Of a DNA stretch of 32,913 nucleotides, positions 2,023-32,913 are shown piece after piece. The position numbers were made by a program, and so were the translations under genes. The notes under the pieces are model-generated. The model was not told where the DNA came from, searched no databases, and saw nothing but the letters and a program-made list of their open reading frames with translations. This DNA is from a virus. Positions within the stretch are counted from its first letter, which is position 1, and every line of letters begins with the position of its first letter. The DNA is taken from the IMG/VR virus record IMGVR_UViG_3300027896_000135, positions 1 through 32,913 of that record; one strand, given 5' to 3'.

Positions 2023-2074
2023 TTTTTAACAAAAATTTTAATTTTTTATGCATTAATTGCGCTTTTCATCATTG

Positions 2075-2103
2075 TTTGCATTAATATATAGAATATATGT
2101 TTA
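2075..2103 (+). promoter_or_regulatory. Possible promoter of the TnpB-like gene
   Basis: On the plus strand, TTTG at 2075-2078 and TATGTTTA at 2096-2103 resemble the Bacteroidota TTTG / TAnnTTTG pair, with a 17-nt gap that is slightly short. The -7 element ends 7 nt before the ATG at 2111, so the transcript would be nearly leaderless. The region is very AT-rich, so this could be chance. Confidence 0.3.
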
Positions 2104-2110
2104 TATAACA

Positions 2111-3508
2111 ATGCAAACAATAAAGCTTAAATATAAAACATCAGATGAAAATCTTTCTGTGATTCTTGACTATCAGAGACAATATAGTTCTTGTTTACAT
2201 TTTGCATATAACAGATTTTTAGAAGAAGAACACATTTCTTCAATGTTTAATTATCTAAAATCTGATTCATCTATCTTACAAAAGATCAAGAAGCTTAATA
2301 ACATATCTCTAATAAACTCTTGGTTCATGTTGAGTTTAATTCGAGAAGCATACCAGATAATAGAAGCTAGAAAAGATCAGAAAATTATCTTCGGCGGCAA
2401 GAAAAATTTCTTTATGCGGATGAAAAATAAGATCACTAAAGAAGAATATAAAATCTTGAAGTTAAATCCACTATGTAATATCGGATGTGCTAATTCTAAA
2501 GGCAATAGATTTTTTAAGATAGATCAAGAATTAAATAGTATTTTATTTAAGCCAAATAGAGCTACAAAAATTCAACTATATCTAGAAAACTTAAGAGGCA
2601 AATATCGAGATATATTGAAAAATCTCTATTTGAGACAAGAGAATAAAAATCTGTCAATAACTTATAAGCTTGATTCTAAACATATTTACTTGACTTTTGA
2701 TGAAGCCAAGCTGACCACATTTCAAGAAACTGCTAAAATAGAAAACAGAGTCTTGGCCCTAGATCTTAATCCTAACTACATTGGTTGGTCGATTGTTGAT
2801 TGGGCTTCTGAAAATCAATTTAAAGTCATAAAGTCAGGAATATATTCTTTTAAAGCATTGAATGACAAAGAGTATAGCTTTAAAGAGATGAAGCTAGATT
2901 CTTCAGATTCTAGACGCATTCATCTTAGTGATAAGAGAAGATTTGAAGCATTTGAAGTGTCAAAGAACATCATAAATAAAGCGCTCTATTATAAAGTTGA
3001 GATGATTGCTATTGAAGATTTATTTATTGTTTCTTCAGATAAAGCTAATGGCAAAAACTTTAATCGTCTATGTAACAATCAATGGCTTCGTAATGATTTT
3101 GTCAATAATTTAACCAAGAGATGCAACATATTCAAGATAAAGCTTCTAAAAATTAAACCAGAATATAGTTCTTTCATCGGCAACTTTCTATATAGAAGCC
3201 TAAATCTACCAGACATGATCTTATCTTCTATAGAGATTGGTCGTCGAGCCTATGAGTTTAACTTGCAATATATCATTAAAACAAAAGAAAAAAAGAAGAA
3301 TATAGTTCAACCAGATTTAACTCTGTTTAAATCTTTAGTTATCAAGTCGTTGGAAGAATTTGATATCAAAGAAGAGCTTAAGTCTTTAATAGAACTATAT
3401 TATTTCTTCAAAAAGTCTAAAAAGATGTATAGACTTTCTTTGGATCAATTTAAAGATCTAAAGTTTTCTAGATTCTCTTCAAAGTGCTCGGGCATTAATG
3501 TTGCATAG
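2111..3508 (+). CDS. TnpB/Cas12-superfamily RuvC nuclease without zinc ribbon
   Basis: This 465-residue protein has a C-terminal split RuvC fold. RuvC-I is LALDLNPNYIGWSIVD with Asp218. RuvC-II is MIAIEDLFI with Glu302. RuvC-III is LPDMILSSIEIGRRAYEF with Asp368. The motif IKPEYSSFIGNFLY at 348-361 matches the PxYSS/TSxxG segment of TnpB and TnpB-related proteins. The usual four-Cys zinc ribbon of TnpB is missing, as in the 'TnpB-related accessory protein' group. TnpB relatives are RNA-guided DNA nucleases; whether this one uses a guide RNA is unknown. A TTG at 2057 is in frame, but I chose the ATG at 2111 because the protein begins in good family register there (MQTIKLKYKT). It is on the opposite strand to its neighbours, has no TnpA beside it, and is probably a recent arrival. 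Confidence 0.8.
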   Translation: MQTIKLKYKTSDENLSVILDYQRQYSSCLHFAYNRFLEEEHISSMFNYLKSDSSILQKIKKLNNISLINSWFMLSLIREAYQIIEARKDQKIIFGGKKNFFMRMKNKITKEEYKILKLNPLCNIGCANSKGNRFFKIDQELNSILFKPNRATKIQLYLENLRGKYRDILKNLYLRQENKNLSITYKLDSKHIYLTFDEAKLTTFQETAKIENRVLALDLNPNYIGWSIVDWASENQFKVIKSGIYSFKALNDKEYSFKEMKLDSSDSRRIHLSDKRRFEAFEVSKNIINKALYYKVEMIAIEDLFIVSSDKANGKNFNRLCNNQWLRNDFVNNLTKRCNIFKIKLLKIKPEYSSFIGNFLYRSLNLPDMILSSIEIGRRAYEFNLQYIIKTKEKKKNIVQPDLTLFKSLVIKSLEEFDIKEELKSLIELYYFFKKSKKMYRLSLDQFKDLKFSRFSSKCSGINVA

Positions 3509-3591: not shown

Positions 3592-4224
3592 TTAAATAAT
3601 ATTTAACTTTTCTAATAAAAAATGTTGATATATAGATCCTTTTCTCATAACTTTTTTACTGCCTATTATAATTTGCATTTTATCAGCATCTTCTAATGGA
3701 ATTCGTAACGTAGAGTAATTAACTTTTGCACTGCCATGTTTCCATATAGTTTTACATTTACTTAAATCAATAATTCCTACAAACATAGATGAAATTCTAT
3801 TTGTCTCGAAATCTAAAAAATATGATATTAAAATAAGTTTTGATGTTTTGGGGAATTTATTTCCACTCCATGATGATATAGTATGCGAACCATTTTTTTC
3901 TAATTTAGCTCGAGTTACTTTGATTTCATGAAGTAAAGCAAATAATAAACAATCATATCCACTTGTTTCTTTTTGAATTATATCTAAACATATATTTTGA
4001 CATTTTCTAAAAAAAACATCTAATATATAATAATTAAAGATTTTTGTCATATCTTGAGATATTTGATTTGTATATTTAAATATATCTTTAAACTCAAGTA
4101 TATGTTGATCATCTTCACTTCGAGATTCACGATATTTATCAAGTGAACGCCCTAAATCAATATAAGAATGATTTAATAAAATTTCTCGTAATTCTCGTAA
4201 TTTATTTAATTCTTCATTATTCAT
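3592..4224 (-). CDS. Putative PD-(D/E)XK restriction/homing-type endonuclease
   Basis: The 210-residue protein contains GYDCLLFALLHEIKVT at about 89-104. Asp91, Glu100 and Lys102 fit the D...ExK active site of PD-(D/E)XK nucleases. It is followed by a Ser/Trp-containing segment (HTISSWSGNKFPKTSK) and hydrophobic strands (LILISYFLDFE), an order seen in type II restriction enzymes. The N-terminal 80 residues are helical. It lies tail-to-tail with the TnpB-like gene and head-to-head with the SiaC-like gene, and no partner methylase is fused. The Dam gene at 5151-6017 is near but not adjacent. It could be an orphan restriction enzyme, a homing nuclease or a host-DNA degrading nuclease. The match is by motif only. 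Confidence 0.5.
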   Translation of the reverse strand: MNNEELNKLRELREILLNHSYIDLGRSLDKYRESRSEDDQHILEFKDIFKYTNQISQDMTKIFNYYILDVFFRKCQNICLDIIQKETSGYDCLLFALLHEIKVTRAKLEKNGSHTISSWSGNKFPKTSKLILISYFLDFETNRISSMFVGIIDLSKCKTIWKHGSAKVNYSTLRIPLEDADKMQIIIGSKKVMRKGSIYQHFLLEKLNII

Positions 4225-4302: not shown

Positions 4303-4680
4303 ATGGTGATAGACGCTAATGATGACAACACTCTACCTTCAATAGATTTTGATGAAAAAGCTGGGACGATATTGATCACTGGAAAATCTACATTTGTTTG
4401 TCCTGAAATTTTCTATGAGTCATTTACAGAATATCTGAAACATTATTTAACAAAACATGCTAAAGATCTTGAGGTGACAATAGACTTGGATTATTTCAAC
4501 ACACGGAGCGCTAGGCCCCTATTGAATTTTTTCAAGGCATGTCAGACAGTCGTTAACAAGGGGTTTAAGCTTAAAATAAATTGGATAATCGAAGAAAATG
4601 ACTTATCTATGGAAGACGCAGGCCTAGATTTCTCTAATATACTGAAAATCCCGTTCAGCATTATTGAGAAGCCCGAGTGA
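4303..4680 (+). CDS. SiaC-family (DUF1987) regulatory phosphoprotein homologue
   Basis: The 125-residue protein matches the SiaC/DUF1987 family over its whole length: an N-terminal LPSIDFDEKAGTILITGKS, then FYESFTEYLKHYL, the signature LDYFNTRSARPLLNFF and the C-terminal NWIIEENDLSMEDAGLDFSN. In Pseudomonas SiaC (about 126 residues) the Thr in the YFNT motif is phosphorylated by SiaB, dephosphorylated by SiaA, and controls the diguanylate cyclase SiaD. The equivalent Thr67 is present here. None of the Sia partners is in the window, so the likely role is acting on host signalling, such as c-di-GMP or stress control; this is inference. It is on the plus strand, alone, and ends 4 nt from the converging ankyrin gene. 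It looks like a captured bacterial gene. Confidence 0.8.
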   Translation: MVIDANDDNTLPSIDFDEKAGTILITGKSTFVCPEIFYESFTEYLKHYLTKHAKDLEVTIDLDYFNTRSARPLLNFFKACQTVVNKGFKLKINWIIEENDLSMEDAGLDFSNILKIPFSIIEKPE

Positions 4681-4684
4681 GCTG

Positions 4685-5119
4685 CTACATATACTGCTTC
4701 AGCAATTTTACAATCTCTGTGTGTCTTTCTCCTCTTGCCCATCGCAAAGGTTCATCATTAGCTGCATGCACATCTGCTCCAGCATCTAACAATAATTTCA
4801 CTATTTTATAATATCCGTGAAAACTAGCATGTCGCAAAGCATAATCACTAAAATGATGCACATTTGCGCCATTATCGATTAAAAGTTTAGTTATTTCATA
4901 GTATCCATTATCACATGCATTTTTTAATGGCCAATCATCACCATAATGTATATTTGTTGCTCCAGCAGCAATTGCATCTTTGACGATCCAAGTTATGCCT
5001 TGTTCAATTCCAGTCTTAAACTTTTCTTCAGGAGATAGATTCTTAAATATAGCTTGAAGCTCTTCTTCAGATCTTGGCGTCAAGTGTTTGATGCTTTCAT
5101 TCACAAGTTTAGCTCTCAT
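4685..5119 (-). CDS. Ankyrin-repeat protein with full N-terminal tag
   Basis: The 144-residue protein starts MRAKLVNESIKHLTPRSEEE, the full form of the shared tag. A linker KNLSPEEKFKTGIEQ and the degenerate unit ITWIVKDAIAAGA follow, then three 33-residue ankyrin units (GYYEITKLLIDNGANVHH, GYYKIVKLLLDAGADVHA, HTEIVKLLKQYM). It is more diverged from the other ankyrin genes than they are from each other. The upstream region (minus strand) has TATATAAAAC about 16 nt before the ATG, close to the late-type element. It probably binds a protein, with host target unknown. Confidence 0.85.
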   Translation of the reverse strand: MRAKLVNESIKHLTPRSEEELQAIFKNLSPEEKFKTGIEQGITWIVKDAIAAGATNIHYGDDWPLKNACDNGYYEITKLLIDNGANVHHFSDYALRHASFHGYYKIVKLLLDAGADVHAANDEPLRWARGERHTEIVKLLKQYM

Positions 5120-7936: not shown

Positions 7937-8260
7937 TTATCTTAATAAACTATAACTTATATTCCACCTAAATCCTTCATCTTCTCTTACTGAAGCACTT
8001 TTGTTATTGAGCCTCATAATTATGCCTTGATGCTCTCCACCGTCTCTTCCGCTCCAATTGACAACTTGACCTCTATGAAAAGGTGATTTTGCGGCTCGTC
8101 TTTTCATATTGATTTTTGCATTCCACGCTGGATTGACAAGATGAATGATTTCAGACAGTTCATCAAAAGACATTTCCTTTAACAATTTTCCTGAGAACAA
8201 TGATCTTTCATGGGCTTCTAGTTCTTTGGGGCTTCTGGGTGTCAAATGCTTTATGCTCAT
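7937..8260 (-). CDS. Tagged SH3-like small protein
   Basis: The 107-residue protein starts MSIKHLTPRSPKELEAHERS, the short form of the shared tag. The middle is helical (FDELSEIIHLVNPAWNAK). The C-terminus (RGQVVNWSGRDGGEHQGIIM) looks like an SH3/KOW-type small barrel, a fold often used for protein or nucleic-acid binding. It is the first gene after promoter 8281-8312, so this tagged gene has an early-type rather than late-type promoter. Confidence 0.65.
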   Translation of the reverse strand: MSIKHLTPRSPKELEAHERSLFSGKLLKEMSFDELSEIIHLVNPAWNAKINMKRRAAKSPFHRGQVVNWSGRDGGEHQGIIMRLNNKSASVREDEGFRWNISYSLLR

Positions 8261-8339: not shown

Positions 8340-8717
8340 TTAATTTTTATAAAATTTTATTCTTATTTTTAATATTGTTTTAGTAAAATTATCATTTGTT
8401 TCTTCGTCTTCTATTTCATAGCGTACATTTTCTTTTTTCAATGTTCTGAACAGCTGTTTCCTGTTGTGAAGATCAACTTGCATAGACAATGTATAATAAT
8501 GCACTAAATGATGATGAAGATTATAAATAACATTCTTACTAAAGCCAGTAGACATTAATTTTATGTCAATGATATGCAACCTTTTGCATAGTTCCGTTTT
8601 CGCAAAATCTAAATCCATGTGAAAAAAATCCATAGAAAAAATCAAATCTTTGTATGATATAGTTGCAAGATATGCATTTATCTCCTCTTCTGATCTTGGT
8701 GTAAGATGTTTTATCAT
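8340..8717 (-). CDS. Tagged hypothetical protein, paralogue A
   Basis: The 125-residue protein starts MIKHLTPRSEEEINAYLATI. It matches the neighbouring protein at 8714-9070 along its length: SYKDLIFSMD, ELCKRLHIIDI, HYYTLSMQV, YEIEDEET and a C-terminal KIRIKFYK. The pair is a tandem duplication that has since diverged. The N-terminal tag is the best-conserved part. It is the last gene of the ten-gene operon from 10731. Function unknown. Confidence 0.65.
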   Translation of the reverse strand: MIKHLTPRSEEEINAYLATISYKDLIFSMDFFHMDLDFAKTELCKRLHIIDIKLMSTGFSKNVIYNLHHHLVHYYTLSMQVDLHNRKQLFRTLKKENVRYEIEDEETNDNFTKTILKIRIKFYKN

Positions 8718-9070
8718 TTATAGATTTTCATTCGTATTTTATATACATTTTTTGTATAATCATTATATTCGTCTGATTCTTCATCTTCTATTTCATAATG
8801 TATGTCTTCTTTTTCTAAAGCGTCATACATATATTTTCTGTTATATCCACGCATATGTACTATTACTGTATAGTATTGCACTACGCTATGGATAAAATTG
8901 ACGGCACATATTCTTAAGCCATTCATCCCTATGTCAACGATGTGCAACCTTCGGCATAACTCTTTTTTCATAAAATTTGAATCCATGCCAAAAATCAAAT
9001 CTTTTAAAGATACAGCTGCAAGATATGTCTCTATTTCTTCTTCAGATCTCGGTGTAAGATGTTTGATCAC
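8714..9070 (-). CDS. Tagged hypothetical protein, paralogue B
   Basis: The 118-residue protein starts at a GTG (9070) as MIKHLTPRSEEEIETYLAAV; GTG is chosen because the tag begins there. It shares SLKDLIFGMD, ELCRRLHIVDI, QYYTVIVHM, YEIEDEES and KIRMKIYK with paralogue A downstream, and the two genes overlap by ATGA. A small helical N-terminus and strand-rich C-terminus are likely. Function unknown. Confidence 0.65.
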   Translation of the reverse strand: MIKHLTPRSEEEIETYLAAVSLKDLIFGMDSNFMKKELCRRLHIVDIGMNGLRICAVNFIHSVVQYYTVIVHMRGYNRKYMYDALEKEDIHYEIEDEESDEYNDYTKNVYKIRMKIYK

Positions 9071-10797: not shown

Positions 10798-11208
10798 TTA
10801 TTTCATGTGTTGTTTCAAGAGCTTCACCACTTCAGCATGCCCATAAGCACTTGCCCATCGCAGAGCCTCATCATTATCTGCATGCACATTTGCTCTAGCA
10901 TCCAACAACAGTTGCACCACTTCAGCATGTCCATTTAAGCTTGCCCATCGTAAAGCCCCATCATCATTTCCATGCACATTTGCTCTAACGTCTAGCAGCA
11001 CCTTCACCACTTCAGCATGCCCATAAGCACTTGCCCATCGTAAAGCCCCATCATCATTTGCATGCACATTTGCTCCAGCAGCGATCGCATCTTTGACAAG
11101 CCAGGCTATGCCTTGTTCAGCTCCAGTCTCTAGCTTTTCTTGAGGAGACAGATTTTTCATAGTAGTTTGAAGCTCTTGTTCAGATCTTGGCGTCAGATGC
11201 TTTATCAT
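10798..11208 (-). CDS. Ankyrin-repeat protein with KHLTPRSE tag
   Basis: The 136-residue protein starts MIKHLTPRSEQELQTTMKNL, then the first unit IAWLVKDAIAAGANVHA and three nearly identical 33-residue units (GHAEVVKVLLDVRANVHG and similar), ending GHAEVVKLLKQHMK. At the DNA level the units are close copies of those at 1-230 and 32580-32913, showing recent duplication or gene conversion. Several units read DVRAN or DARAN where the canonical sequence is DAGAD, so some loops have drifted. It overlaps the upstream gene by ATGA and ends the operon from 15318. Confidence 0.85.
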   Translation of the reverse strand: MIKHLTPRSEQELQTTMKNLSPQEKLETGAEQGIAWLVKDAIAAGANVHANDDGALRWASAYGHAEVVKVLLDVRANVHGNDDGALRWASLNGHAEVVQLLLDARANVHADNDEALRWASAYGHAEVVKLLKQHMK

Positions 11209-19277: not shown

Positions 19278-20072
19278 ATGGCAAGTTTAAAAAAATCTTA
19301 TAAGTATTATTACATTTATAAAACATTTAATTTAATAAATAAAAGATGTTATGTAGGTTTTCATGCTACAGATAAAGAATATGAATATGATTATTATTAC
19401 GGAAGCGGAAAATTATTAAAACGTGCTATTAAAAAATATGAAATAAAAAATTTTATTAAAGGTGTTATAGAATATATTGATTTTCAAGAATGGCGAGAAA
19501 AGGAAATATACTGGATTAAAAAAATGCATTCTCATATTAGCGAAGGCGGGTATAATTTAACTAGAGGAGGAGAAGGATCACTAGGACGAAAGCATACTAA
19601 AAAATCAATAATAAAAATGAAAAAATATATACGTACCGAAGAACATAAAAAACATTTAAAAGAAAATAGAGCACATTTATTTGGAGAAAAAAATGGAATG
19701 TTCGGAAAAAAACATAAAAAGAAATCAATAAATAAAATGAAAAAAGCAAAACAAAATATATCTCAGGAAACGCGAGATAAATTACGTAAATCAAAAAAGG
19801 GAAAACCTAATTACAAACTTCGCGGAAGAATTAGATCTAAAGAACACTGCGAAAATATTAGAAAATCAAAATTAAATATGTCTCAAGAAACACATGATAA
19901 AATAAAAAATAATACTCGTATTGCAATGCAAAAACCTGAAATTAGAGAAAAAATAAGAATTGGTTTGAAAAAAAGAGAAAAATTAACATGTCCCATTTGT
20001 CATAAAACGATGGATCCTTCAAATTTTAAAAAATATAAACACGGTGATAATTGTAAAAATAAAAGATTATAA
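19278..20072 (+). CDS. GIY-YIG homing endonuclease with NUMOD3 repeats
   Basis: The 264-residue protein begins with a GIY-YIG-like nuclease domain: YYYIYKT at 10-16, YVGFH at 25-29, YYGSGKLLKRAIKKY at 40-54 and a Glu-containing WREKEIYWIKKM. Then come NUMOD3 DNA-binding units (SLGRKHTKKSIIKMKK, NGMFGKKHKKKSINKM) and basic helices (SQETRDKLRKSKKGK). A C-terminal CxxC...C finger (CPICHKTMDPSNF...DNC) ends it. It cuts DNA site-specifically and copies itself into cut alleles. It is on the plus strand, free-standing, with no intron traces nearby; its end overlaps the converging gene by 6 nt. Confidence 0.9.
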   Translation: MASLKKSYKYYYIYKTFNLINKRCYVGFHATDKEYEYDYYYGSGKLLKRAIKKYEIKNFIKGVIEYIDFQEWREKEIYWIKKMHSHISEGGYNLTRGGEGSLGRKHTKKSIIKMKKYIRTEEHKKHLKENRAHLFGEKNGMFGKKHKKKSINKMKKAKQNISQETRDKLRKSKKGKPNYKLRGRIRSKEHCENIRKSKLNMSQETHDKIKNNTRIAMQKPEIREKIRIGLKKREKLTCPICHKTMDPSNFKKYKHGDNCKNKRL

Positions 20073-21331: not shown

Positions 21332-21973
21332 TTATTTATATATTTTAATAAATTTTTTATTTTTGGAATCCCAACCATACCCTCGCTTCCTCATTACTTC
21401 ATATCTTTCTGGGATATCTAACCACTTTCCAAGTTCTTCATCCCAATTATATTCCCATGATCCTTCATAATAACTACCTTTATCGTATGATCTATCATGT
21501 TTATAATTATTATCTTTAATCCATTGACTGTCTTTTTTATGTATTTCTGCTTCATGTGCTGCATAATGTTTTTGATTTTCTTGATAAGTTTCTTCATCAA
21601 AGCCTATATACTCTGATATATCTTTAACTACTTGTTTCCACATTTTTTTTGTAAAAGATTTTATAGGTATCCAATCTAATTCATTTTGATATTCATCATC
21701 ACTGCTAATTCCATTAAATGCCACAGTATCATAATAAAATTTAATTTCGACTCCTTCTTCTCCTTCTGAAACATATAATGAAATAGTTTCATGTATTTCT
21801 GGAACATCTACAGAAAATTGTGTGCCTGACTCAAAATTACCGTCAAATTCAGCATTTAAATATGGCAAATATTTTTTAACTGCATCTTTTAATGCTTTTA
21901 TATTTTTATCAATTTCCTCTTCAGATCTTGGTGTAAGATGCTTTATTGCTTCATTTACAAATTTTGCTCTCAT
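21332..21973 (-). CDS. Tagged hypothetical protein with Trp/Tyr-rich C-terminus
   Basis: The 213-residue protein starts MRAKFVNEAIKHLTPRSEEE, the full tag. The middle is strand-rich (GTQFSVDVPEIHETISLYVS, VEIKFYYDTVAF). The C-terminus has aromatic, charged segments (YYEGSWEYNWDEELGKWLDI, RKRGYGWDSKNKKFIKIYK). It lies 5 nt downstream of the gene at 21979 and carries the promoter of the next gene in its last codons. Function unknown; cargo role inferred from the tag only. Confidence 0.65.
   Translation of the reverse strand: MRAKFVNEAIKHLTPRSEEEIDKNIKALKDAVKKYLPYLNAEFDGNFESGTQFSVDVPEIHETISLYVSEGEEGVEIKFYYDTVAFNGISSDDEYQNELDWIPIKSFTKKMWKQVVKDISEYIGFDEETYQENQKHYAAHEAEIHKKDSQWIKDNNYKHDRSYDKGSYYEGSWEYNWDEELGKWLDIPERYEVMRKRGYGWDSKNKKFIKIYK
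21333..21340 (-). promoter_or_regulatory. Late-type promoter element TATAAATA
   Basis: An exact minus-strand TATAAATA followed by AAAG, 12 nt before the ATG at 21320 and overlapping the end of the upstream gene. The element and spacing recur before 22407 and 26704, with variants before 23150, 23718 and 31753. It matches the T4 late-promoter core. Confidence 0.55.
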
Positions 21974-21978
21974 TTTGA

Positions 21979-22407
21979 TTATTCTTCATTTAATTCAGGA
22001 TACATCTTTAATAAAGCTTCTAGAGTTATTTGTCTATCTGTTTTATCATATATAAGCATCTTCTTATCTGAAATATTAGGATAAACAGTTATAACATATT
22101 TTTCTTTTTTTAATAAATCAATTAAAAAATAACATTTATTATAACTACTTAACTGATACTGATCAAAATATCTTGCTGCTTCTCGAAGATTTCCTTTATT
22201 AGAAATTGACCATTCACTTGTTCCTAATTCTAATGCTGCTTTTACTGAAGGAATATCTATCAAAAAAACATAATCATTATTAAAAATTATTTTAGCTCCA
22301 GTTTGTTTTATTTTTCTAATTAGTGGCGCTTTTCCTAAGCCAATGCCCATGTCTTCTATAGGATCAGATTCATCTGTAAACTTTTCATATATAAATTTAG
22401 CTCTCAT
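21979..22407 (-). CDS. Tagged hypothetical protein, variant tag
   Basis: The 142-residue protein starts MRAKFIYEKFTDESDPIEDM, a variant of the tag that keeps MRAKF and an acidic turn. An alpha/beta body follows (AKIIFNNDYVFLIDIPSVKA, CYFLIDLLKKEKYVITVYPN). A late-type TATAAATA stands 10 nt before the ATG (22418-22425). Function unknown. Confidence 0.65.
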   Translation of the reverse strand: MRAKFIYEKFTDESDPIEDMGIGLGKAPLIRKIKQTGAKIIFNNDYVFLIDIPSVKAALELGTSEWSISNKGNLREAARYFDQYQLSSYNKCYFLIDLLKKEKYVITVYPNISDKKMLIYDKTDRQITLEALLKMYPELNEE

Positions 22408-22472: not shown

Positions 22473-22832
22473 TTAGTTTGGAGAATTAATATTTCCATCC
22501 CAATAATTTCCAAATTCTTTATTTTTTTGTTTAATCCATTTAAATACTTCTCTGGCAAATTTATTATCAGATATTGGTTCAGTTATATTCCATTGCATAT
22601 CATCAGCCCAATCATCGTTAATTAACCATTGTATAAATTCTCCTCTACCAAATACGTTTTCATGCATATCAGTTTCTACATTACCAAATCCGGCGCAGTC
22701 ATATGCGCTGGATAAATCAAGATCGTGACTTTTAATTATCATTTCATCTACTAAAGATGCTATTCTTTCAGCTCTTTCAGGAGTCATAAAACGTTCTTCG
22801 TTTAGACTCTCTTTAACTAATTTTGCTTTCAT
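22473..22832 (-). CDS. Tagged hypothetical protein (MKAKLVKESLNEE)
   Basis: The 119-residue protein starts MKAKLVKESLNEERFMTPER, followed by AERIASLVDEMIIKSHDLDL and an acidic, Trp-rich C-terminus (FIQWLINDDWADDMQWNITE). The tag contains L-N-E, which fits a gp21-type cleavage site. A terminator follows directly. The upstream AT-rich stretch lacks an exact late element. Function unknown. Confidence 0.65.
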   Translation of the reverse strand: MKAKLVKESLNEERFMTPERAERIASLVDEMIIKSHDLDLSSAYDCAGFGNVETDMHENVFGRGEFIQWLINDDWADDMQWNITEPISDNKFAREVFKWIKQKNKEFGNYWDGNINSPN

Positions 22833-22841
22833 ATTTTTCTT

Positions 22842-23150
22842 TTATTTTAAATCATTTACATTTAAAACAACAAAATCATCATCAGGAAATCCATCTATAA
22901 ACGAATAACTTATGTTATTATTATTTAATTCTTCTAATAACTCATCCCAATCAACAGATTCATTCCATGAACTAACAAATACAGCGTCTTTTTCATCAAT
23001 TCCCAACGCATTAATTGCATCATAAAATTTTCCGCGAAATTTCTTTGCATACACATTTTTCACCTCACTGAAATAAGTATAATCTAATTCATCTTTATTA
23101 AGAATTGACGAAGAATCATTAAGACTCTCTTTAACTAATTTTGCTTTCAT
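22842..23150 (-). CDS. Tagged hypothetical protein (MKAKLVKESLNDS)
   Basis: The 102-residue protein shares MKAKLVKESL with its neighbours and then diverges: SEVKNVYAKKFRGKFYDAIN, SWNESVDWDELLEELNNNNI and an acidic end. It probably folds as a small alpha/beta protein. The element TATAAATT stands 9 nt before the ATG. Function unknown. Confidence 0.65.
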   Translation of the reverse strand: MKAKLVKESLNDSSSILNKDELDYTYFSEVKNVYAKKFRGKFYDAINALGIDEKDAVFVSSWNESVDWDELLEELNNNNISYSFIDGFPDDDFVVLNVNDLK

Positions 23151-23232: not shown

Positions 23233-23718
23233 CTAATCTTGATCTTCAGATTCAATATCTTCAATCATTTCATCATATATAGATTTGGTCAAATATTTCA
23301 CATTTATATGATCTGGAATTAAACTTTGGTACATTGATCTCCCTCTTCCTAGTTTTACATGAGCTGAAGTCATTAAAGGTTGAGAACCATCATAAAATTG
23401 AAATCCGTTTTGTTCATCTAATATAAGAGCAATACCTCCTTCTTCATTATTATGGAATTTAAGTCTTTCATCTTCTACAAGAAATATTAAACATGCTATT
23501 TCTTTATCATTTTCATCTAAAGCAAGTTCATCTGGAAAATCTTCGTCGCTTTCTGTTAATTTAATTGCTAATTTTTTTTCTAATTGTTTAGCTAATGAAC
23601 GAATTTGCGGATATTTTTTTGAAAATTCTCGCAGTTCATTTTTACGTTCATCACTAAAGTATCTTGAATTTTGAATTTTTTCATCATCAAGAGATTCTTT
23701 AACTAATTTTGCTTTCAT
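23233..23718 (-). CDS. Tagged hypothetical protein (MKAKLVKESLDDE)
   Basis: The 161-residue protein has the tag MKAKLVKESLDDEKIQNSRY, a charged helix (LAKQLEKKLAIKLTESDEDF) and a strand-rich region (GIALILDEQNGFQFYDGSQP, KLGRGRSMYQSLIPDHINVK). It ends very acidic (EDIESEDQD). It is one transcription unit of its own: late-type TATAAATT upstream and a terminator downstream. Function unknown. Confidence 0.65.
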   Translation of the reverse strand: MKAKLVKESLDDEKIQNSRYFSDERKNELREFSKKYPQIRSLAKQLEKKLAIKLTESDEDFPDELALDENDKEIACLIFLVEDERLKFHNNEEGGIALILDEQNGFQFYDGSQPLMTSAHVKLGRGRSMYQSLIPDHINVKYLTKSIYDEMIEDIESEDQD

Positions 23719-24258: not shown

Positions 24259-25902
24259 TTATCCGCATTTACTAAATGTGCATTGCGAACAATGTCTGCA
24301 ATTTTCTTCTTGAACCATACTGCTGCCACATTCCGGACATTTCTCTAATGTTAATTCATCATCAATATATCTTGATAATGTTCTTCTAAGAGCAGATGAA
24401 AAAGAAGTTACATTTTCATCTATTTTTGATATAACATGATTCACGTATTTAACAGGAGCACCGTGTCTCAATATCATTGATGCAGACAGTGTCAGTGTTT
24501 TTTCCTCCACTCTGCTCATTGCCAAATTCAGATCTGAGATTTCAAATTCTCCATTCACAAATTTATACTCTCCTTTCTTAACTTTAATTGTTTTTCCTTT
24601 TGTGTTTTTCTCCATTGGTGGATTTTCAAATGCAAAAACTTCCCAAGGTCTGTTTGTTCCTGGCCATAGTCCCACGATAACGGCAAATTTTACTCCTTTA
24701 ACAGTTGCAACATAATAATCTGCTTCAAGAACTTTAGGTCTTTTAGGCGCATGATTGATTTTGAATTCTTCTTCTTTCTTGATCAAGACCCCAGAACGAG
24801 AGCCTTCTCTATAAACTGTAAATCCTTTGCAGCCTAGTTCCCATGCTTTCATATATAGATCTGATACAGTTTCTTTAGTTACATCTGATTTTAAATTAAC
24901 AGTTTTGCTTATGCTATGATCTATCCAATGCTGAGCAGTTGATTGGATATCTATACCTTTTAAAAAATCTATTTCATTGGCAGTTGCCTTATAATATGGA
25001 GATTTTGTTATGTCTGTTTCACCCGTTATTTCCATCCATTTTTTTAAACCATGGTGATAGACAACATACTCTTGCCATTTATCTCCATTTTGATCAATAA
25101 AATCGGGCTTTATTTCAACATTCATTATTTTTTTTCTTCTTTTATATTCCAACATAAAAATTGGTTCTATGCCAGAAGATGTTTGTGTCATAAGACTTAC
25201 TGTACCTGTTGGACTTTGGGTATTACATGCTATATTTCTTCTTCCATATTTTTTATAATCTTCATATAATTCTTTATCTGCAAGCCATAATTTAGTAAGA
25301 AAAGAATGATCTTTTTCTAATTCTAAATTAAAAATTGGAAAGGTTCCGCGTTCTTTTGCAAGATTAATAGACGATTTATATGTATTTAAAACTAAAGTTT
25401 TATATATTTCATTTACTTCTTTGATAGATTCATCAGAACTATATTTGATATTTAAATAAGCTAACGCATCACCCAAAGATGTTAGTCCTAAGCCTGTTCG
25501 TCTTCCATTAATTGCATTTTGTTTAATTTTGTTCCATAATTCTGTTTCTACTCTTTTAGTTTCATGATTTTCAGGATCATTTTTTATTTTTTTAAGTATT
25601 TTATCAATTTGTTCTAATTCGAGGTCTACTAAATCATCCATCAATCTTTGTGCTATCTGAATATGTTTTGCAAATAGTATGTAATTAAATTTTGCCTTTT
25701 CTGTAAAATAATTTTCTACATAACTAATTAAGTTTAAAACCATTAAACGACAACTATCGTATGAAGATAAACATAATTCTGCACAATTATGAACTAATAA
25801 ATCATTAGCAAAAAAATTATAATTATCTCTAACAGATATGTCATACACGTCTTCATTTTGTATAACATTTATTTTTTTAATCTTGACTTCTTTTATCTTC
25901 AT
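24259..25902 (-). CDS. nrdJ: Ribonucleotide reductase class II (NrdJ), C-terminal part preceded by C-terminal split intein
   Basis: The 547-residue product starts with a 39-residue C-intein (MKIKEVKIKKINVIQNEDVY ... NFFANDLLVHN) and then the extein from Cys40 (CAELCLSSYDSC). The extein carries the class II reductase core: GRRTGLGLTSLGDALAYL at 133-150, ACNTQSPTGTVSLMTQTSSG at 225-244, EPIFMLEYKRRKK and a Cys-rich C-terminal zinc ribbon (522-547). Class II enzymes reduce ribonucleotides using adenosylcobalamin. After splicing to the N-part at 26755-27942 the mature enzyme would be about 799 residues, with the essential active-site Cys as the +1 residue. The start overlaps the endonuclease gene by 26 nt. 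Confidence 0.92.
   Translation of the reverse strand: MKIKEVKIKKINVIQNEDVYDISVRDNYNFFANDLLVHNCAELCLSSYDSCRLMVLNLISYVENYFTEKAKFNYILFAKHIQIAQRLMDDLVDLELEQIDKILKKIKNDPENHETKRVETELWNKIKQNAINGRRTGLGLTSLGDALAYLNIKYSSDESIKEVNEIYKTLVLNTYKSSINLAKERGTFPIFNLELEKDHSFLTKLWLADKELYEDYKKYGRRNIACNTQSPTGTVSLMTQTSSGIEPIFMLEYKRRKKIMNVEIKPDFIDQNGDKWQEYVVYHHGLKKWMEITGETDITKSPYYKATANEIDFLKGIDIQSTAQHWIDHSISKTVNLKSDVTKETVSDLYMKAWELGCKGFTVYREGSRSGVLIKKEEEFKINHAPKRPKVLEADYYVATVKGVKFAVIVGLWPGTNRPWEVFAFENPPMEKNTKGKTIKVKKGEYKFVNGEFEISDLNLAMSRVEEKTLTLSASMILRHGAPVKYVNHVISKIDENVTSFSSALRRTLSRYIDDELTLEKCPECGSSMVQEENCRHCSQCTFSKCG
25786..25902 (-). other. C-terminal half of a split intein (Int-C, 39 aa)
   Basis: Residues 1-39 of the downstream gene: block F DVYDISVRDNYNFFANDL and block G LLVHN followed by Cys +1. 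Terminal Asn and the penultimate His are the residues that cyclise and release the intein. Known split NrdJ inteins have a C-half of nearly the same length and the same NFFANDILVHN end. Confidence 0.9.
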
Positions 25903-26704
25903 GGTTCATTATTCTTTTTAGTTTCCATTCTTTGACATTATTAATATTTTTTTCACAATACGGAGCAATATCAGTTATCAATATAAATTCAATATCTTTT
26001 TTTAATTGTTTTTTTAATTCTTCATATTTATATACTTTATCTTTCCAATATCCCTTTATTTCAACTATCTGTATAATCTTTTTATTATTTATTTTATCAA
26101 ATATAAAAAAATCGGGTCTATATGATTTATTTTCACTTATTTTATATAATGTACATTCTACATCCCATATTATATTTTTTGAATCTAACCATTTGGCGTA
26201 AATATATTCCCAAGAACTTCTTAACCACACATATTTTTTAAAATATTTATTATAATAATACCCCTGAATTCCTCGTGCACATGAATTTTTTATTTTAACT
26301 TTTTTTATACATTCTTCAGATGCCCATCCTATTTTATTTTGTACTTCATATAAAGCTTTTTCTTTTCTTATTTTATGCAAATGATCTGTGATTTCATTAT
26401 GTTTTCTTAGTATAATATCAAAAAAAGATTTCAATGTCATTCTTAAAACAGGATATGTTATTGGCAAATTTAAATACTTTATCATATATTTTATTCCATA
26501 TTCTTTTTCATAATAATAATAATGTAATAATTTTTTACATTCTTGGTATCTTTCATCTTGTTTTATTCCCTCTACATCATGACCTGTATTTCCTCTGCAT
26601 ATAGGTATTCCGTGTTCATTTACAGTATGTTTAATAATAGTAATATAAAACTTTTTATTTTGAATATCACTTAACAAACTTCTTAATTTTAATAATTCAT
26701 CCAT
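25877..26704 (-). CDS. Free-standing PD-(D/E)XK-type homing endonuclease between the two reductase halves
   Basis: The 275-residue protein has an N-terminal helical DNA-binding-like part (LLHYYYYEKEYGIKYMIKYL ...) and a C-terminal nuclease core: VWLRSSWEYIYAKWLDSKNI at about 160-180, RPDFFIFD near 199-206 and IVEIKGYW near 218-225. The PD ... ExK arrangement with RSSWE is typical of phage homing endonucleases of restriction-enzyme or Vsr-like fold. It should cut reductase genes lacking the intein, allowing the split intein locus to spread. It has its own late-type TATAAATA 12 nt before the ATG, like intron endonucleases of T4 that are made late. Its stop overlaps the start of the C-part by 26 nt. 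Confidence 0.85.
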   Translation of the reverse strand: MDELLKLRSLLSDIQNKKFYITIIKHTVNEHGIPICRGNTGHDVEGIKQDERYQECKKLLHYYYYEKEYGIKYMIKYLNLPITYPVLRMTLKSFFDIILRKHNEITDHLHKIRKEKALYEVQNKIGWASEECIKKVKIKNSCARGIQGYYYNKYFKKYVWLRSSWEYIYAKWLDSKNIIWDVECTLYKISENKSYRPDFFIFDKINNKKIIQIVEIKGYWKDKVYKYEELKKQLKKDIEFILITDIAPYCEKNINNVKEWKLKRIMNHEDKRSQD

Positions 26705-26716
26705 AATCCTTGCTTT

Positions 26717-26724
26717 TATTTATA
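26717..26724 (-). promoter_or_regulatory. Late-type promoter element TATAAATA before the endonuclease
   Basis: An exact minus-strand TATAAATA (in ATATATAAATAAAAGC), 12 nt before the ATG at 26704 and 31 nt after the reductase N-part stop. It would uncouple endonuclease expression from the early reductase transcript. Confidence 0.55.
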
Positions 26725-26754
26725 TATTTATATTAAAAGCGAGGATTATTACCC

Positions 26755-27942
26755 TTATTGCATGTCTAATTCTAATAAAATATCGTTTTCTGTAAGTTTT
26801 GCCGCTTCAACCCATCCTCTATTTTTTGTATAGACTTTATGGTCAGGCGTTAATTTAATTCGTTTTCCATCTTCAAGTTCTAATTCAATAACGTTTGCTT
26901 TTATTTTTGTTAAACTAGCATAATCTAAATTTTTATGTTCTAATTGAGATGTTTTTATATTATAAGACATAATATAAATTTCATTTTTCATTTTTTGAAA
27001 ATTATCACTTAATTCACGGATAGTTATTTTTCCTTGTGAAGTTTCAATTAAAGTATCACCTGTTAAGCACGGGTTGACTCCCGTGGTCTGAAAACCATAA
27101 TCTTTATATATGTCTGATGGTGTATTTTTTAATATAGTATCCCAAAATAAAATTCCTGGTTCAGCTTGCTCCCATGTATTTGATATAAATAAATTCCATA
27201 ATTTTTTTGCATCAATCTCTTTAAAAATAATTGGATTTTTTTCTGGCCATTTTTGTACATACATCTTATTATTTTTAACGGCCATCATAAATTCATCATT
27301 CACTCGAATAGAAATATTAGCGCCAGTTACTTTAGTTCTGTCATTTTTTATTGTTATAAATGTTTCTATTTGTGGATGATTAACAGCACATGATAAAATT
27401 AGTGCTCCGCGTCTTCCATTTTGCGCGACTTCTCTAGTTGTATTTGAAAATCTTTCCATGAATATGCCTATGCCGTCTGTAGTTTTTGCAGCATTGTTAG
27501 TTTGCATACCTTTGGGCCTTATGTTTGAGATATCAAAGCCTACTCCTCCTCGTCTTTTCATGAGTTGAGCCTGTTCCTGATCAGTTCTGAGAATCCCACC
27601 ATAAGAATCTGCTGGAGATTCTATAACAAAACAATTTGATAAGCTTTGTAATCTATAATCATTTCCTATGCCCTCCATAGGAGATCCTTGCGGAATAATA
27701 TATTTAAAATGATCAAAGTATGAAAAGATCTCTTCTTCAGAGATTGGATTAGGATATTTTTGCTCTATTCTTGCAAATTCTTTAGCTAATCTTTTATGTG
27801 TGTCTTCGGGAGTTAATTCTTTAAAATTTCCTTCTTTATCTTGTAATGCATATTTTGACATCCAAACATCACAAGCCATTGCATCTCCTGAAAAATATGA
27901 TAATGTAGCTTCTTTGACTTCTTCATGGGTATAGTTTGCCAT
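26755..27942 (-). CDS. nrdJ: Ribonucleotide reductase class II (NrdJ), N-terminal part ending in N-terminal split intein
   Basis: The 395-residue product has reductase extein at 1-291, with NCFVIESPADSYGGI at 103-117, RRGGVGFDISNIRPKG at 130-145, and EPGILFWDTIL near 261-271. It ends at the active-site motif VNP, where the intein begins at Cys292 (CLTGDTLIETSQGK). Residues 292-395 form the N-intein with block B LTPDHKVYTKNRGWVEAAKL and the end DILLELDMQ. There is no ATP-cone domain at the N-terminus. The protein is inactive until spliced to the part at 24259-25902. The arrangement matches 'fractured genes' known from phage metagenomes. Confidence 0.92.
   Translation of the reverse strand: MANYTHEEVKEATLSYFSGDAMACDVWMSKYALQDKEGNFKELTPEDTHKRLAKEFARIEQKYPNPISEEEIFSYFDHFKYIIPQGSPMEGIGNDYRLQSLSNCFVIESPADSYGGILRTDQEQAQLMKRRGGVGFDISNIRPKGMQTNNAAKTTDGIGIFMERFSNTTREVAQNGRRGALILSCAVNHPQIETFITIKNDRTKVTGANISIRVNDEFMMAVKNNKMYVQKWPEKNPIIFKEIDAKKLWNLFISNTWEQAEPGILFWDTILKNTPSDIYKDYGFQTTGVNPCLTGDTLIETSQGKITIRELSDNFQKMKNEIYIMSYNIKTSQLEHKNLDYASLTKIKANVIELELEDGKRIKLTPDHKVYTKNRGWVEAAKLTENDILLELDMQ
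26758..27069 (-). other. N-terminal half of a split intein (Int-N, 104 aa)
   Basis: Begins with catalytic Cys1 in block A (CLTGDTLIETSQGKITIREL) and contains block B TPDH, whose Thr and His help the N-S acyl shift. It stops at the classic split site and has no linker endonuclease domain, so it is a mini split intein with its endonuclease encoded separately. Confidence 0.9.
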
Positions 27943-31776: not shown

Positions 31777-32913
31777 CTAAAACATTCCATAATATTCTAT
31801 AATATCACCTGCATGTAATGTGCTACTGATTCTCTTATCCTTAAGTAAAAGCTTTATCATTTTTAAACCTTCGGGAGAATTTTTCGGCGCCCATGTCAAT
31901 AACGCTGAGCCTATGTGTGAATAAAAATTGGTGTAAGCAGCTCTGGGTTCTATATTCAACCTCGAGTCCTTCAACAATTCTTTGACAACATTATAATGAT
32001 TAGCTTGAATTGCGTGTCTTAATGCAAAATTATTTTCTGTGCTTGGGTCCACTCTTGGATCTTTCAACAACAGCTTAACAATTTCCAGATTAGTTGTGTC
32101 ACCTTCATTATAATATGCGTAAGATGCATGTCTGATCGCTGAATTGTCCTGCACTGTAGGGTCAGCGCCTTCATCTAATGCCTCTTTGACAAGCCATGTG
32201 ATCCCGTACATGTATCCCGCAATCAGCTTTTGATCAGGCTCGGCTTTTTTGGCGCCTTCCTTGACAAGCCAATCAATTTTATGACTACCACCATAGTTCA
32301 ATAATTTATGAGCGCTGAGGTCTTTTTCTTCTAATGCCAATTTTATCAGCCAATCTATTTTATGTGTACATCCAGCTTCAAATTTAATGCTAGGATCTAT
32401 ATGTTCTTCAGAGACAGCTTCTCTGATGACCCAATCTAAGTTGTTTTTGCATCCGAACAAAAACTTGTCTAATGTTGACAGATCTTTAATAGATTGTCTC
32501 ATTTCATCTTCAGATCTTGGTGTAAGATGCTTGATGCTTTCATTGACTTTTTTTGTTACATCTCGTTTTAGCAGCTTCACCACTTCAGCATGCCCATTGT
32601 TGCTTGCCCACCACAATGCCAAATCATCTCTTGCATGCACATTTGCTCCAGCATTAAGCAGCAGCTTCACCATCTCAGCATGCCCATAGTAGCTTGCATT
32701 TTGTAAAGCCCCATCATCCCATGCATGCACATCTGCTCCAGCATCTAGCAGCACCTTCACCATCTCAGCATGCCCATTATCGCTTGCCATTCGTAAAGCA
32801 TAATCATTTATTGCATGCACATCTGCTCCAGCATCCAACAACAATTGCACCACTTCAACATGCCCATTGCCGCTTGCCCATCGCAGAGCCTCATCATTAT
32901 CTGCATGCACATC
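31777..32913 (-). CDS. Ankyrin-repeat fusion protein with an internal tag (5' end outside window)
   Basis: The frame is open to the window end and joins 1-358 in frame through the terminal repeat. From the N-terminus it has several near-identical ankyrin units (GHAEMVKVLLDAGADVHA), then KLLKRDVTKKVNESIKHLTP (bases near 32570-32510), which is the shared tag in mid-protein with no start codon. After it comes a second half: four degenerate units with the core IDWLVKEA, then ankyrin-like units (TNLEIVKLLLKDPRVDP, HYNVVKELLKDSRLN). This looks like two tandem tagged ankyrin genes fused by loss of the first stop. It ends IIEYYGMF. Function unknown. Confidence 0.85.
   Translation of the reverse strand, partial: DVHADNDEALRWASGNGHVEVVQLLLDAGADVHAINDYALRMASDNGHAEMVKVLLDAGADVHAWDDGALQNASYYGHAEMVKLLLNAGANVHARDDLALWWASNNGHAEVVKLLKRDVTKKVNESIKHLTPRSEDEMRQSIKDLSTLDKFLFGCKNNLDWVIREAVSEEHIDPSIKFEAGCTHKIDWLIKLALEEKDLSAHKLLNYGGSHKIDWLVKEGAKKAEPDQKLIAGYMYGITWLVKEALDEGADPTVQDNSAIRHASYAYYNEGDTTNLEIVKLLLKDPRVDPSTENNFALRHAIQANHYNVVKELLKDSRLNIEPRAAYTNFYSHIGSALLTWAPKNSPEGLKMIKLLLKDKRISSTLHAGDIIEYYGMF
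32787..32913. repeat. 127-bp terminal direct repeat (copy of 1-127)
   Basis: Second copy of the exact terminal overlap; see the entry at 1-127. Both copies lie in the same ankyrin frame. Confidence 0.95.

Follow-up and report, generated by a model that had tools for sequence, protein, structure and literature searches.

In Pseudomonas aeruginosa, SiaC contacts the c-di-GMP cyclase SiaD through Asp29, Tyr31, Tyr65, Asn67, Thr68, Ser69, Ile71, and Met75; phosphorylation of Thr68 blocks SiaD binding, and SiaC with the single T68A substitution still supports biofilm formation (PMC8457831). The SiaABCD module is defined by siaA, siaB, and siaD at the siaC locus. Phage influence on this pathway has a precedent, by a different route, in PIT4 of Pseudomonas phage LSL4: in P. 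aeruginosa, this protein reportedly reduces the transcription of siaABCD (PMC10714779). Here, we describe a siaC gene in a stretch of viral DNA (the window), which is a complete IMG/VR record of 32,913 bases with open ends. The features that matter are as follows.

4303-4680, + strand: phage SiaC (PF09345/DUF1987), 125 aa (Pfam, 90.5 bits; fold, Z 18.5 to 6kko; viral clade, 100/99)
4393-4398, + strand: codons 31-32 (Phe-Val), replacing Pro-Glu (alignment)
4501-4503, + strand: Thr67 codon (alignment; secondary structure of the model; phosphosite per PMC7647112)
4504-4506, + strand: Arg68 codon (alignment; Ser/Ala/Val in bacteria, Lys/Arg in the window's clade)
3592-4224, − strand: divergent neighbor, 210 aa, phrog_11812, a family of unknown function (PHROGs; context only)
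4685-5119, − strand: convergent neighbor, ankyrin-repeat protein with a NESIKHLTPRSEEE leader (ORF list, Pfam; context only)
2057-3508, + strand: TnpB-like ORF, divergent in sequence (transposase N-terminal model, weak, E 0.034)

Identity and phosphosite of the window protein

The siaC ORF starts with ATG, and its ends lie exactly at 4303 and 4680; the start codon is backed by alignment to the start of a phage relative. The initial annotation placed the protein in the SiaC/DUF1987 family over its full length, and the profile search bears this out: PF09345 matches with 90.5 bits (E 7.8e-26; cut-off, 24.5 bits) over residues 9-122 of the protein and positions 5-119/120 of the profile. Because the match is so strong and spans the whole length, chance is excluded. 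PF09345 was the only Pfam family returned at E ≤ 1; the profile of STAS anti-sigma factor antagonists (PF01740) gave no match at this threshold. The assignment holds at the level of the family and not at that of the SiaC equivalog (NCBIfam NF038265, biofilm regulation phosphoprotein), for which the window protein scores 53.2 bits against a cut-off of 150. Consistently, a phmmer search of PDB sequences returned at E < 0.001 only entries of P. aeruginosa SiaC (6k4f, 6kko, 6kkp, and 7e6g; E 5e-4). An AlphaFold2 model built from a 34-sequence alignment has a mean pLDDT of 86.9, and its best eight Foldseek matches are all SiaC chains (TM 0.78-0.87). With VIA-align, the model reached Z 18.5 over 123 residues against SiaC, and the next fold relative was RsbV with Z 9.6. 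Thus, the window protein is a PF09345 member with a SiaC-type STAS-like fold.

Thr67, in the motif YFNT, aligns with Thr68 of the Pseudomonas protein, is preceded by Asn66, and marks the start of helix alpha-2 in the model, as Thr68 does in SiaC. Asn-Thr is invariant in the clade that the window protein forms with three other viral proteins (see below), with Thr in 4/4 members. The motif had been described as intact; this is correct for Asn-Thr, but the adjoining SiaD-contact serine is Arg, and the Pro-Glu loop is gone. More precisely, the position after Thr is Lys or Arg in 4/4 clade members, compared with Ser in 79/94, Ala in 13/94, and Val in 2/94 bacterial sequences, and the Pro-Glu of the SYPEN/SIPEN loop, which is near-invariant in bacteria (P in 92/94, E in 93/94), is lost in the clade. 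Both changes lie near the SiaD-binding face. Because the clade keeps Asn-Thr and changes SiaD-contact positions, the phosphosite is kept while the effector-facing surface is partly altered.

The window phage, its relatives, and other viral SiaC proteins

The window is a fragment of a large Lak-related phage. PHROGs matches include an NAD ligase, a DNA polymerase, a ribonucleotide reductase, and a dehydrogenase that is GMP reductase-like by reading; based on the DNA polymerase, the named phages nearest to it are LR756500 and the Prevotella Lak phages (36-37% identity). Each of the three standard stop codons is used to end ORFs. siaC is a lone + strand gene, with oppositely oriented genes on either side. 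The host is probably a member of the Bacteroidota.

In a 41-row tree, the window protein (P0001) forms one clade (100/99) with proteins from the viral contigs G014 (162 kb), G015 (28.7 kb), and L113 (9.9 kb); no bacterial row falls within this clade, and a 31-row tree agrees. G014, which is classed as linear and has a large terminase, preserves the order of the replication block of the window, i.e., NAD ligase (53-60% identical), two unknown proteins (52-64%), reductase (55-82%), ribonucleotide reductase, DNA polymerase (70%), and dUTPase (58%). Relative to this block, siaC is located on the same side in the two contigs, at a distance of ∼20 kb in G014 and of 8.2 kb in the window. The viral setting of the gene, as initially proposed, is supported. 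For the siaC genes of G014 and G015, dN is 0.30 and dS 1.17 (dN/dS ∼0.26), consistent with purifying selection; comparisons involving the window gene are saturated. Because the clade is supported at 100/99, and because the DNA polymerase and the replication-gene order are common to the window and a 162-kb relative, we conclude that siaC is not a stray but is stably kept among related large phages of the Lak type.

Several other features of the window were noted. Many of its small proteins have common N-terminal leaders (IKHLTPRSEEE, MKAKLVKES, and, at 21979-22407, EKFTDESDPI), and such leaders also occur in G014, G015, and L113. Proteins of this type are encoded at 4685-5119, 7937-8260, 8340-8717, 8714-9070, 10798-11208, 21332-21973, 22473-22832, 22842-23150, 23233-23718, and 31777-32910; the T4-like contig L092 has a different shared leader, MKKSELRKIIKEEL. 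These leaders are possibly virion-targeting; SiaC is without them. The ribonucleotide reductase gene (24259-27942, − strand) is in two ORFs with broken ends that resemble intein halves, and the 275-aa ORF between them gives the appearance of a split-intein arrangement. The ORF at 19278-20072, one of the few + strand genes, is homing-endonuclease-like (GIY-YIG by eye) and has several relatives in G014.

SiaC was found in 13 IMG/VR contigs beyond the window and, thus, in at least 14 viral contigs. The productive query was a consensus-like Bacteroidota SiaC probe that served only as bait; the window protein alone gave no match in scans of viral or genome contigs. The final viral scan added no contig, and the survey looks saturated at the sensitivity used; as it is based on short patterns, divergent copies will be missed. 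In named phages, tblastn of the window protein against 50,697 INPHARED phages gave no match, the T4-like viral SiaC gave none in INPHARED, and LR756500 and two Lak phages had no SiaC above the cut-off. Similarly, no PHROGs family matches the window protein, and a fold search of BFVD gave no match at E ≤ 0.001.

In the T4-like group (L011, L092-L098, and L099), the phosphosite residue is Ser. siaC overlaps the upstream gene by 1-4 bases in L092/L093, L096, L098, and L011; in L092 (8430-10381) and L011 (462-2083), the overlapped gene encodes a secreted protein that ends in a sorting tail for type IX secretion and, in L092, has a CUB domain. On the 193.8-kb viral record G008, one of two SiaC copies (L100:6094-6471) carries Ala in place of the phosphorylatable residue, by sequence a putative natural phospho-dead form. 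In L108 (viral, 166.6 kb), SiaC is a recent Bacteroidales-like copy, 75% identical to Bacteroidales SiaC, and directly adjoins an IS605-type TnpB gene. G008 and G013 were judged viral based on helicase, recombinase, tail-fiber, endolysin, and homing-endonuclease matches; a phrog_2 terminase search matched only in G002 and G014. The backbone linking viral and bacterial SiaC groups has weak support in the tree, and an AU test does not reject a common ancestry of the two main groups of viral SiaC (p 0.26). The literature that was searched made no mention of DUF1987 with phage or of SiaC with huge phage. A phage hijack of this pathway had initially been regarded as new; the window is one of at least 14 viral contigs with SiaC, and PIT4 provides the precedent mentioned above.

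Partner genes in viruses and bacteria

As initially noted, the partners are absent from the window: searches for SiaB, SpoIIE, and GGDEF were all empty in this record, which is a fragment, so that partners may lie elsewhere in the genome, and siaA, siaB, and siaD do not accompany siaC. The SiaB kinase (PF19788) was not found in the viral records G000-G009 and G013-G015, a set without L113 (G010, G011, and G012, i.e., loci L024, L018, and L068, are all Bacteroidota), and GGDEF and SpoIIE were not found in the six viral records screened.

Based on searches and trees, the nearest bacterial relatives of the window protein are from Bacteroidota (34% identical), where SiaC is present in 8/148 sampled genomes. 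Its bearers include the laboratory isolate Breznakibacter xylanolyticus (L024/G010). A search for SiaB/SiaD-like genes in such hosts had been proposed. For SiaB, the expectation holds, with SiaB in all 17 SiaC-bearing bacterial genomes tested; SpoIIE domains number 5-11 per genome in 3/3 SiaC-bearing genomes. For SiaD it fails in most: GGDEF above the cut-off is missing in 10/17, Bacteroidales-type genomes among them, so that c-di-GMP is not supported as the general output, contrary to the role first assigned to the pathway. A GGDEF gene adjoins siaC in some Bacteroidota (G140 C6 and G148 C18), and the output thus varies within this phylum. We also observed Bacteroidota fusions of SiaB (DUF6272) and SiaC domains beside a separate siaC (L018:3063-3938 and L016:158-1201).

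Possible function and comparison with known systems

Because the phosphosite is intact, the partners were not found in the viral records searched, and other large phages carry copies, SiaC-bearing phages probably plug into host signaling. We suggest that siaC was acquired from a bacterium, most likely of the Bacteroidota, and then kept by large Lak-related phages. The phage protein would most likely act in trans on the host switch, where SiaB (the DUF6272 kinase) and SiaA (the SpoIIE phosphatase) would treat Thr67 as they do the phosphosite of host SiaC. By competing with host SiaC for SiaA/SiaB or the effector, it may set the switch to an infection-favoring state. The output would be host-specific and, in Bacteroidales-like hosts, would not be c-di-GMP. 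We see about an even chance that the protein is such a phage-adapted SiaC, entering the host SiaA/SiaB switch as a competitor or decoy; we infer the host, the binding to SiaB/SiaA, the phosphorylation, and the effect on infection. Thr in 4/4 clade members, the lack of a viral SiaB in the records searched, SiaB in 17/17 genomes, and the purifying-type dN/dS count in favor of this reading. Two points count against it: with SiaC present in just 8/148 sampled Bacteroidota genomes, the pathway may be missing from the actual host, and the clade changes near the switch face could reflect binding to proteins other than SiaB/SiaA. A bolder reading, which we hold to be less likely than not, is that large Bacteroidota phages captured SiaC more than once and use it as a viral phospho-switch component that usurps host SiaA/SiaB, with an output other than c-di-GMP. 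In G008, with one phosphorylatable copy, the Ala copy could lock the switch.

It is unlikely, but far from negligible, that the SiaC fold was repurposed in the phage for a phage-internal or unrelated host target, e.g., a sigma factor or a GHKL/STAS regulator, and no longer engages SiaA/SiaB. The Pro-Glu loop loss and the Lys/Arg after Thr are confined to the window's clade, an ECF-type sigma factor is encoded ∼5 kb from siaC in L113, the fold is common to anti-sigma antagonists, and anti-phage systems elsewhere are controlled by GHKL/STAS switches (CapK/CapS; PMC13373217). However, Asn-Thr is fixed in 4/4 members, which fits continued recognition of the site by a SiaB-like kinase, and the viral records searched yielded no phage kinase of the PF19788 type; the PF13581 matches in G014 and G015 are weak and sit in frames of 609-616 aa, of which that of G015 resembles a type II topoisomerase subunit by eye.

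That the phage supplies an extra SiaC copy to activate a host c-di-GMP cyclase, as in the Pseudomonas SiaABCD pathway invoked initially, appears improbable. In P. aeruginosa, SiaC is known to activate SiaD (PMC8457831), and siaC adjoins a GGDEF gene in the two Bacteroidota cases above; yet, 10/17 SiaC-bearing genomes, Bacteroidales-type included, are without GGDEF above the cut-off, and SiaD-contact positions are altered in the phage clade. Finally, siaC is very unlikely to be a passenger without a role, brought by a mobile element. The TnpB-like ORF, which had no Pfam match at E ≤ 1, is found upstream of siaC and shares its strand, and L108 provides a siaC gene directly beside TnpB, but siaC is kept in G014, G015, and L113 without a TnpB-like ORF among the nearest neighbors, the clade is well supported, and dN/dS for its closest pair (G014-G015) is low.

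If the host-switch reading is true, a viral protein joins a bacterial Ser/Thr partner switch as a phospho-carrier, and phage SiaC copies would be natural probes of SiaA/SiaB/SiaC control in bacteria without GGDEF proteins. Among known systems, PIT4 differs in that its effect is transcriptional and it targets two-component systems; nothing marks it as a SiaC homologue. The anti-sigma factor antagonists SpoIIAA/RsbV resemble the window protein in the STAS-like fold and the phosphosite at a helix N terminus (Z 9.2-9.6), but this likeness is structural only, as PF01740 does not match. P. aeruginosa SiaC (6k4f, 6kko, and 7e6g) has in common with it the whole-length PF09345 profile, the fold, and Asn-Thr at the start of helix alpha-2; the window protein differs in being ∼18% identical, in having Arg68 in place of Ser69, in the absence of the Pro-Glu loop, in its score under the equivalog cut-off, and in the absence of adjoining siaA, siaB, and siaD. 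Bacteroidales SiaC proteins are the closest bacterial relatives (∼34%), with YFNT and a similar C-terminal IPF..IE; their genes adjoin siaB (DUF6272) and read NTSS and IPEN, whereas the window gene is solitary, with NTRS and TFVC at the corresponding places.
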